DNA from: Chloroflexota bacterium
Lineage (GTDB): Bacteria > Chloroflexota > Dehalococcoidia > Lucifugimonadales > UBA3495
DNA length: 64,000 bases
Assembly (NCBI GenBank): GCA_009840165.1
Contig: VXOG01000028.1
Location: forward strand, 29,937-93,936
Reading direction: 5' to 3'
Shown: piece after piece, positions 3,814-19,785 of the stretch
How positions within the stretch are numbered: position 1 is the stretch's first letter
Layout: each line of letters begins with the position of its first letter
The notes under the pieces: model-generated
Seen by the model: the letters and a program-made list of their open reading frames with translations, nothing else
Told to the model about the DNA's origin: nothing
Database searches by the model: none
Program-made: the position numbers and the translations under genes

Positions 3814-3935
3814 CAAGACTGCAACCTTAAAGCGCCGAACCCTCCGTCCACGGCGGAAAAACTTGCCCCAACTCTGCGCAGCCGGAATCTAATCGCCGTT
3901 CCCCCGCGTAACCGTCATTCCGGACTCACCTCCCG

Positions 3936-3982
3936 TCATTCCCGCTGCCCTCCCGTCATTCCCGCTTTCGCGGGAATCCAGT
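3936..3982. repeat. CGTCATTCCCGC-type dispersed hairpin repeat
   Basis: A CCGTCATTCCCGC partial copy is followed by a full TCCCGCTTTCGCGGGAATCCAG copy, in which CCCGC and GCGGG pair around TTTC. Related copies lie near 33363, 45840, 50468 and 54180. It follows the restriction-modification pair and may end its transcript. Confidence 0.7.
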
Positions 3983-4091
3983 AAATCCCCAAATAACGTC
4001 ACCCCGTACTTGATACGGGGCCGGTGAATCCTGATTCTGACACCCCCCTTGACACCGCCTAATCGAACTTATATCCTAATCTTGTCTAGGC

Positions 4092-4400
4092 AAACAGCTG
4101 TTCACATCCGATACCAGTAGAGGCAGGTTTTCCCTTCGATGGCCAACCCCGTCAGTTTCAAAATCGCAACCGATCCAGGTGGCAAGAGGCCGATATTGAC
4201 ATACCTGTTCACCGGCGGTGCCACACTGGGTCACCGGGACCCTTCGGACCCGGGTGCTAAGGTTTACGATCCGCTCTTCTTGAGCCGGCGAAAGTCCGCT
4301 TTCGGTGGATCGAAGGACCCCAGCGCACCAAACTGCCGTCGAAATAGTTGCGTGACCCCGGCCGTATGCTGACAACGAAGCGAAAACCCTGCCTCTCGCC
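4092..4400 (+). other. structured repeat element, copy A (unrecognised; candidate ncRNA or MITE)
   Basis: This 309-bp non-coding segment shares conserved blocks, in the same order, with the reverse complement of 19204-19473. The left block contains AAACAGCTGTT and a GAGGCAGG end, then AACCCCGTCAG, CAAAATCGCAACCGAT and CAGGTGGCAA. A middle block is CACTGGGTCACCGGGACC-n-TTCGGACCCG. The right block is GGCCGTATGCTGACAACGAAGC ending CCTGCCTCTCGCC. The ends pair (GAGGCAGG...CCTGCCTC), and inner parts pair too (GTCAG/CTGAC, CGCAAC/GTTGCG). The segments between blocks differ in sequence and length. No convincing ORF exists. It could be a structured RNA or a non-autonomous mobile element. I do not recognise the family. 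Confidence 0.65.
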
Positions 4401-4470
4401 CACCGCAAAAACCACCGACCGAACCCCCAGGAGATCGCCGACCGAAACACCACACCGACTAACCAACATG

Positions 4471-4500
4471 CGTAGGGGCGGGCGCCGAGCCCGCCCACTA
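4471..4500. repeat. GTAGGGGCGGGC-type dispersed hairpin
   Basis: GGGGCGGGC and GCCCGCCC arms surround GCCGA. It is one of a family of GC-rich intergenic hairpins in this window (near 9290, 19733, 24462, 33402 and 63460). It sits between structured element A and the orphan gene. Confidence 0.55.
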
Positions 4501-4580
4501 CCGCTCCAATCAATAATCCGGTTCATCCTGCGCATCCATGCTAGCTGTGCATCCATGTCAGTGATAAAGGAGCAATCGCC

Positions 4581-5180
4581 ATCGGTACTGTAGCCCTCCA
4601 CCGGAAACGCAGCCGCGACTTTCTCAACCTTGCCCAGGTCAGTCTCGCGTTCGGCAACGCTCCGGACGCTGCCGAGTACCTGCGCCGGTCCGGCAGCCAC
4701 GCCGCGACCGCCGCCTGTGTGCATTGGCATTTCCCCCATCGCTCCCGTTGGCAACTCGCCCGCGCCCTCCGGTCTGTCGTGATCGAACATGGCCTTTCCA
4801 AATCACACGTCGACACCCTCCAAACCGCCCACTCCGTAGGCCGCGATTGGCTCCGTTCCATCGAACAACCCGACGCCCTTCGACACCTCAATGTTCTCTA
4901 TCGTCGCCTCCGCCGCCTCGCCGATGACCTCGACCTCGCCATCGCCGCGGACCCAATCCCGCCTTCCCTCCAGAGCGTCTTCGCAGAAATCCAGAGCCAA
5001 CCCGCGCCATCCATTACCACCCTGGGTGAACTGCGCCGCATCACCGGCCGACCCCTCGACTCCAAATACGAGGACCACCCGCTGGACTGCCCCGACTGCT
5101 GCCGTATCAGCCGCGACCCAGCCGCCTCCGGCTCCGTTATCTTCAGCCTGTCCTGTCCTCCCTGCCTCAATCATTTCTAA
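4581..5180 (+). CDS. orphan hypothetical protein with C-terminal cysteine pairs; start not canonical
   Basis: The reading frame is open from 4545 to the TAA at 5178 and encodes a coherent basic protein. No ATG, GTG or TTG lies in frame before GTG 4719, yet a strong AAAGGAG (4566-4572) sits 8 nt before an ATC codon at 4581. I therefore place the probable start there (about 199 aa). The alternatives are a base error, a gene truncated at its 5' end, or a short product from 4719. The N-terminal half is helical-looking (AQVSLAFGNAPDAAEYLRRS) and the middle is Arg/Leu/Asp-rich. The C-terminus has CPDCC and CPPC, which could bind zinc. The family is not recognised and no function is claimed. Repeats flank it on both sides. 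Confidence 0.5.
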   Translation: MGTVALHRKRSRDFLNLAQVSLAFGNAPDAAEYLRRSGSHAATAACVHWHFPHRSRWQLARALRSVVIEHGLSKSHVDTLQTAHSVGRDWLRSIEQPDALRHLNVLYRRLRRLADDLDLAIAADPIPPSLQSVFAEIQSQPAPSITTLGELRRITGRPLDSKYEDHPLDCPDCCRISRDPAASGSVIFSLSCPPCLNHF

Positions 5181-19203: not shown

Positions 19204-19473
19204 GGCGAGAGGCAGGATTTCGCTTCGTTGTCAGCATACGGCCGGATTGGGTACGCAACTATTTGAACGGTCGTTCCGTGGTCGCAGGACGATGTCGTTG
19301 CATCCCTCCACGCGGGTCCGAACGGTCCCGGTGACCCAGTGGGGCATCGTTGGTGAGGCGTTAGGTCGTTAAGCAACGGTTGCCACCTGAATCGGTTGCG
19401 ATTTTGAAAACTGACGGGGTTGGCCGTCGAAGCGAAATCCTGCCTCTCTCTTTCGGGTTGCTAACAGCTGTTT
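19204..19473 (-). other. structured repeat element, copy B (unrecognised)
   Basis: The minus strand of this segment matches copy A at 4092-4400 in three ordered blocks (see copy A). The end repeats are especially clear: GAGGCAGGATTTCGCTTCG and CGAAGCGAAATCCTGCCTC are perfect complements. Spacer regions differ from copy A, and this copy is about 40 bp shorter. It lies upstream of the tRNA promoter and encodes no convincing protein. Confidence 0.65.
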
Positions 19474-19785
19474 TATCTAGATGAATCTAGGATAGGCGGG
19501 TTGGCAAGCTAGGGGCAACAGGGTGGTGTCACCAATTTTTCTGTGACTTTCGCCGGAGTGACGGATGGGGTTTCAGCCTGCCATGCGATTGCCCTTTACG
19601 TTCGCAATATGTCGCACGTTATGTAAAAACCCTGGCGGAAGCACCGTTTGGGACAACATAACGCGCCTTGTGCGAACCAACCAATCTTGCGATTTAGCAG
19701 CGCGAATTGCTAGCCCATCCCGTATTAAGAAACGGAGCGGGTTTCAACCCGCCCCGTCTAGGTTGGTTCGCGCGGCGCGCCTTGA
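19474..19785. other. intergenic region; one hairpin, otherwise nothing recognised
   Basis: About 310 bp without a credible gene. The only structure seen is CGGAGCGGGTT-TC-AACCCGCCCCG at 19733-19756, a member of the dispersed hairpin family. It faces the 3' end of the CoA-transferase gene and is likely its terminator. Confidence 0.55.

Follow-up and report, generated by a model that had tools for sequence, protein, structure and literature searches.

Two copies of a repeated element lie in opposite orientation in the window, the whole stretch of 64,000 nucleotides of DNA analysed here, and they raise the question of whether such an element acts as RNA or is a piece of mobile DNA. A sequence-only reading had described two elements of about 300 bp with common blocks, preferred a large structured RNA as the explanation and kept a MITE as the alternative. 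The common blocks are confirmed, the alignment of copy A with copy B giving three of them with unlike spacers in between. The element itself is real, but the range assigned to it was too short: it omitted the promoter upstream (4049-4077), the C-rich tail and an ORF that lies downstream of copy A. We regard it as close to certain from the data that the RNA forms a genuine structured family with a linked HEPN-fold gene; its core and helices are placed as follows.

4118..4397, plus strand: copy A RNA core; covariance-model match of 212 bits (E 2e-60), fold z = -5.4
19207..19448, minus strand: copy B RNA core, solo, without an ORF; covariance-model match of 249 bits (E 2e-71), fold z = -5.5
4119..4139, plus strand: 5′ strand of copy A P1 (partner 4375-4396), from inverted repeats and P1 covariation over 15 sequence types
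4375..4396, plus strand: 3′ strand of copy A P1, from inverted repeats and P1 covariation
4139..4144, plus strand: near-invariant ACGGCC-type block (ATGGCC in copy A), complementary to 4360-4365
4151..4155, plus strand: 5′ strand of copy A P2, GTCAG (partner 4369-4373)
4165..4170, plus strand: 5′ strand of copy A P3, CGCAAC (partner 4347-4352)
4347..4352, plus strand: 3′ strand of copy A P3, GTTGCG, from covariation analysis
4360..4365, plus strand: near-invariant GGCCGT block, from pairing analysis and minimum-energy folds
4369..4373, plus strand: 3′ strand of copy A P2, CTGAC, from covariation analysis

Both copies out-fold their dinucleotide shuffles, none of 200 equalling them. The termini of copy B form a perfect 21-bp inverted repeat (19207-19227/19428-19448), and the arms of copy A are slightly imperfect (4119-4131/4384-4396 and 4126-4141/4373-4388). 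The RNA measures about 240-320 nt, and its core runs in the order P1, ACGGCC, P2, P3, variable domain, P3′, GGCCGT, P2′ and P1′. The stem P1, a helix of up to 21 bp, comes in about 15 versions that differ in sequence, every one of them self-complementary, including GAGAGGCAGGATTTCGCTTCG/CGAAGCGAAATCCTGCCTCTC in the window, CGGAGATTCAAGTC/GACTTGAATCTCCG in the genome G003 and GACCAGGTTCCGG/CCGGGACCTGGTC in a divergent subtype. The mean P1 helix is 10.9 bp within copies and 4.6 bp for strands combined across types, a contrast that is conservative because the cross set retains some related types.

The nested pairs GTCAG/CTGAC and CGCAAC/GTTGCG, both proposed from the letters of copy A, are present at the positions of P2 and P3 and are conserved. 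Across 27 diverse sequences, P2 is paired in 98.1% of cells, with a GC-to-AU double change in 9 sequences, and P3 in 100%, with a change of AU to UA or UG in 8. For the structure as a whole, 90.1% of cells are paired. Its covariation score is 0.192, where shuffles give 0.103 ± 0.010 (none of 500 as high) and slid-partner controls 0.075 at most; since P1 was scored in a single register, this helix is off register in the six rows of the window type. The compensatory changes in P1, P2 and P3 support the structured-RNA reading, and covarying internal helices are not explained by inverted DNA ends. A central hairpin, proposed as GGGACC-nTTC-GGACCC, is present, but it carries an A-A mismatch inside (GGG-A-CC/GG-A-CCC).

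The two near-invariant blocks, ACGGCC and GGCCGT, are 98.8% paired without double changes, and the minimum-energy folds of both copies favour their pairing over P2. This pairing crosses P2 and could thus represent a pseudoknot, an alternative state or a bound motif, among which the data do not choose; we rejected it as a proven helix, near-invariant sequence being beyond the reach of covariation. In the variable inner domain of L052 (G000:C2), L065/L066 (G009) and copy A, other short dispersed repeats have apparently been inserted, which implies that this domain tolerates insertions. A search of the window at Rfam 15 gathering thresholds returned tRNAs only and no family for the RNA, and a search of 3900-4600 at E<=10 gave one chance-level match, outside the RNA. 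As far as sequence searches reach, the RNA family is previously undescribed.

The sequence-only reading had also called for further copies and a covariance model, and both were obtained. A DNA search of the window's own genome found four close copies, with E values of close homologues from 1e-56 to 1e-32. A covariance model built from the copies (R1), followed by a broader one (R2), recovers the family across the genus, in 14 of the 14 genomes examined, with 2 to 119 matches each: 15 in the window's genome, 28 in G011, 75 in G003 and 119 in G006, both of which are assembled as single contigs, and just 2-4 in some others. In 36 other genomes of the family, the only match from another genus was weak (E 0.003), and a search of 393 genomes of the class gave, outside the genus, only matches of 16-24 bits, which were taken as chance; spread beyond the genus was rejected, no convincing copy being present in any other sampled Dehalococcoidia genus. 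The conserved DNA pattern had no match in viral contigs, and the records holding the exact conserved motif are titled as Dehalococcoidia or Chloroflexota MAGs. The isolate names RHO3, IRC4 and APA suggest sponge hosts, an inference from names alone, and our literature search on ncRNA repeats of sponge Chloroflexota or RNA-bearing MITEs found nothing matching.

Upstream of the core, both copies carry a promoter-like site and, close to the expected start of the transcript, a palindrome.

4049..4077, plus strand: copy A promoter, TTGACA - 17 nt - TATCCT, with 10/12 consensus matches
4092..4102, plus strand: palindrome AAACAGCTGTT near the expected transcript start of copy A, from the alignment of copies
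19463..19473, minus strand: palindrome AAACAGCTGTT in copy B, seen in the sequence
19489..19518, minus strand: copy B promoter-like site, TTGCCC - 18 nt - TATCCT, from the sequence and a multi-copy scan

The site of copy B is weaker than that of copy A and falls below detection in the consensus scan. A sigma-70-like promoter in this arrangement stands ahead of most copies. Among all scored copies, many have a better site than shuffled sequence offers; one with 0-2 mismatches is found in 49 of 106 and in none of the shuffled sequence, the commonest forms being TTGACA-17-TATACT and TTGACA-17-TATCCT; transcription is inferred, in the absence of transcript data. At the position of the palindrome, other copies align with AAACGTACGTT, AAACGCGCGTT or GCACGTGC. 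The sequence of this 10-11 bp palindrome varies by copy (AACAGCTGTT, AACGTACGTT, AACGCGCGTT), its self-complementarity being mostly kept, and it could be a kissing-loop or protein site. Some G003 copies (e.g. L168, L171 and L176) have a start region, TATCGGGC, complementary to GCCCGATA, which is repeated in the RNA tail in that species. No intrinsic terminator was found between the RNA and the ORF of copy A on the plus strand in 3950-4620.

The reading frame downstream of copy A had been overlooked.

4566..4572, plus strand: ribosome-binding-like site AAAGGAG, 8 nt ahead of the ATC at 4581
4581..5180, plus strand: HEPN-fold ORF of 199 aa with a probable ATC start, from recurrence, alignment and fold model

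In nearly every locus open to checking, the full unit is ordered as promoter, RNA, ribosome site and an ORF of about 200 aa. The ORF, whose open frame spans 4581-5177 at copy A, recurs beside the RNA across the genus, its members being 36-59% identical to the first one aligned, and a profile search matches all 14 genus genomes. Most loci with an ORF have the RNA immediately ahead of it, a strong upstream R2 match being present in 22 sources (one locus under two names). Four of the loci without one (L203, L209, L221, L225) are truncated by a contig end or begin at one, and in L225 the RNA is still represented by its 3′ end; for L218 and L220 there is neither an upstream match nor such an explanation, and L215/L258 has a match of 12 bits only. 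Separately, in three species, at L051 (G000:C6), L055 (G009:C62) and L060 (G002:C15), an RNA copy precedes a frame that looks HicB-like on reading its translation (MVRQLTAIIER...), broken by a stop codon in the G000 copy.

Values of dN/dS of 0.2-0.5 between nearest members indicate that the frame is protein-coding. Seven members compared with Pfam, NCBIfam and PADLOC gave nothing above noise and no Abi_2 domain, four compared with PHROGs likewise gave nothing above noise, and phage and plasmid collections hold no relative of the ORF. An AlphaFold model is all-alpha (pLDDT 80), and its best Foldseek matches in the PDB are the HEPN proteins 2hsb, 1o3u, 2q00 and the sacsin HEPN domain, at probability 1.00, with target TM mostly 0.63-0.78 and modest E values of 0.02-0.2. 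The HEPN fold is a prediction by fold match only (Foldseek E about 0.02), with no match to HEPN at the sequence level, and HEPN function is inferred, without toxicity data. R38..H43 fits the nuclease motif R-X4-6-H in some members, but the motif is not conserved, R38 (R-X4-H) being Q, A or C in others; R39-X3-H43 is invariant in the ORF alignment A3. The window-type ORF has no in-frame ATG, GTG or TTG near the ribosome site, and ATC also stands there in the orthologues of several species. In a divergent subtype, ATG GGC ACC GTT aligns with ATC GGT ACT GTA of the window, and this ATG at the same place makes ATC the probable start, or else a decayed one; a conserved AUC start codon is possible on this alignment.

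The majority of RNA copies have no ORF, about 119 RNAs standing against roughly 6 intact ORFs in G006 and 75 against 2 in G003, and these solo copies bear on the idea that the RNA is a cis-acting leader, a regulatory 5′-UTR of the HEPN gene with autogenous or riboswitch-like control, of which solo copies would be decaying leftovers. The position of the RNA between promoter and ORF in nearly every ORF-bearing unit fits this idea, as does the ORF-start stub, MNPAHHL, that the solo copies of G006 keep. However, co-orientation with the next gene holds only for ORF-bearing units: among 31 copies of G003 and G006, the four neighbour-gene orientations are about equally frequent, and from this random orientation it follows that solo RNAs are not leaders of particular genes. 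Decaying leaders should moreover drift like their flanks, whereas no part of the solo copies is as well conserved as the RNA core. We consider the leader explanation unlikely, if not to be dismissed.

The contrast in conservation is marked. Among 17 copies of G006, the per-site difference is 1.6% in the core, 9% in the promoter region, 24.5% in the left arm and 15-27% in the tail, and among 13 copies of G003 it is 9% in the core against 19-45% in the flanks. This low core and high flank divergence in the same copies implies that the RNA core has apparently been selected after dispersal, and selection on a trans-acting RNA predicts this pattern. Core-limited gene conversion and the harder alignment of indel-rich flanks may contribute to the contrast, and the uniformity of the core could come partly from gene conversion or recent amplification. 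With the promoters, the compensatory changes in P1, P2 and P3 and a core better conserved than its own flanks, the early proposal of a large structured RNA is supported.

The element also disperses. Copy B is missing from the matching spacer, between a conserved gene and a tRNA cluster, in G007, G004, G011 and G002 (in G005 the spacer also lacks the RNA but diverges more), and the simplest reading of these comparisons is that copy B was gained in the lineage of the window. In G006, many copies are flanked by GGYAGCGTTCCGTT... and its reverse complement, and target duplications of 8-10 bp accompany 10 of 14 copies bounded by these terminal inverted repeats, compared with 0 of 182 mismatched pairings. 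The same ends belong to a 1076-bp IS of this genome (L279 1501-2576; G006:C1:79220-80295), which has 23-bp terminal repeats, a 9-bp duplication, CGCAATGGG, and a frame-split transposase of the Mutator family; the ORF-bearing G006 unit L246 also terminates in the right repeat of this IS type. Occurrences of the terminal repeat pattern of the IS number over 200 in G006 and about 107 in G003.

The MITE alternative thus captures how the element spreads in G006, by inverted ends, target duplications and a same-ended IS, but such ends are absent from the window. There, they were rejected as ends of either copy (0 matches at <=3 mismatches), and no other ends were identified there; a 9-bp direct repeat beside copy B, ACACCACCC, was rejected as a target duplication because ACACC stands at both unit ends in other copies too. 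A plain MITE, i.e. a non-autonomous transposon whose inverted repeats act as DNA and which has no RNA function, must also face internal helices that covary across species and a core that, within the G006 copies, is conserved 6 to 17 times better than their promoter and arms, and we regard it as very improbable. Dispersal of this kind, with an RNA upstream of an ORF and many ORF-less copies, would suit the RNA of a mobile-element machine, comparable to HEARO or omega RNA, guiding or tethering a protein that aids movement or persistence of the element. Against it, there is no HNH or RuvC nuclease, no Rfam HEARO match and no visible variable guide-like end, and the ends and 9-bp duplication belong to a separate Mutator-type IS able to supply transposition, which leaves this explanation decidedly doubtful.

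What the RNA does is approached by analogy. In a known system, RCd22, an RNA of about 100 nt, lies upstream of the HEPN toxin AbiF under a single promoter, and AbiF is neutralised by direct binding of RCd22, in cis and in trans (PMC12373285). The cassette described here shares this layout, and the analogy makes binding and restraint of the HEPN protein the most likely action of the RNA. We favour a mobile RNA-HEPN cassette, possibly a toxin-antitoxin-like pair, whose RNA would act in trans and probably restrain the HEPN protein; this function is held tentatively, at a little under an even chance. A promoter-driven gene would make a structured RNA with the long closing stem P1, then P2, P3, a variable inner domain and possibly a pseudoknot; cassettes, and far more often their RNA-only derivatives, have reached new positions, carried in at least one species between the terminal inverted repeats of an IS (the mover of the window type is not identified). 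Solo copies would keep supplying RNA in trans. This RNA would bind the HEPN protein, whether encoded in cis or at another locus, and restrain it in the manner of RNA antitoxins; the solo RNAs would then be antitoxins that are surplus or orphaned, or would regulate whichever HEPN genes remain. The data show the RNA structure, the promoter consensus, the link with the ORF, coding selection on the ORF, the dispersal and the core conservation that follows it, so that RNA and cassette have good support; both binding and neutralisation are inferred, without binding data. The antitoxin reading is weakened by a nuclease motif that is not invariant and by RNA copies that far outnumber intact ORFs, beyond the need of a simple toxin-antitoxin pair.

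Such numbers, 15 to 119 copies in several genomes, would suit a multicopy stand-alone regulatory RNA, a decoy or global regulator with the HEPN protein as chaperone or processing partner and not as toxin. RNA binding is the presumed role of HEPN domains that lack the catalytic motif, and a toxic role has even been considered for them (PMC3710099). Such a regulator has no known target or condition and does not alone account for the joint movement of RNA and ORF, and we find it quite doubtful. The cassette reading may also extend to a new RNA-protein system, in which the HEPN-fold protein and the large structured RNA form a complex that dozens of dispersed solo RNA genes, spread by a host IS, serve or control genome-wide; this is on the unlikely side, though far from negligible. 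If true, it would amount to an RNA-based network whose RNA half has multiplied like a transposon while under selection. As the dispersed copies are apparently selected at the RNA level, the role of 75-119 copies per bacterium is directly testable.

Cas13 and abortive-infection systems are proposed to be rooted in HEPN-linked structured RNAs, of which, to our knowledge, few kinds are known. The units described here resemble AbiF/RCd22 (PMC12373285) in combining a sigma-70-type promoter, a structured ncRNA, a ribosome site and a HEPN-superfamily protein, with co-transcription possible. They differ in an RNA of about 240-320 nt and not about 100 nt, which is not the abiF motif RF03085 (no match with Rfam 15 in the window or in 3900-4600), in a protein that is not Abi_2, in the lack of an intrinsic terminator before the ORF of copy A and in tens of solo RNA copies per genome. 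With HEARO/omega RNA and IscB (RF02033), they share a large structured RNA 5′ of an ORF and an association with mobile DNA, but their protein has a HEPN fold and not HNH/RuvC, and they have no Rfam match and no visible guide end. Like IS256/Mutator-type MITEs, the G006 copies are non-autonomous, with matching terminal inverted repeats and 8-10 bp target duplications; unlike them, they enclose a conserved RNA gene with its own promoter, and the window copies lack these ends. In type III toxin-antitoxin systems (ToxIN-like), an RNA that may be pseudoknotted lies just upstream of the gene of a small protein under one promoter. An RNA just upstream of a small-protein ORF, a shared promoter and a possible pseudoknot recur here, but without tandem RNA repeats or a terminator before the ORF, and with a HEPN and not a ToxN fold. 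Finally, the RNA is large, complex and clade-restricted, as are the large ornate RNAs ROOL, GOLLD and OLE, from which it is set apart by its many copies per genome and its linked HEPN-fold gene. It would be a family unusual among RNAs in size and copy number, and one that has a protein partner of its own.
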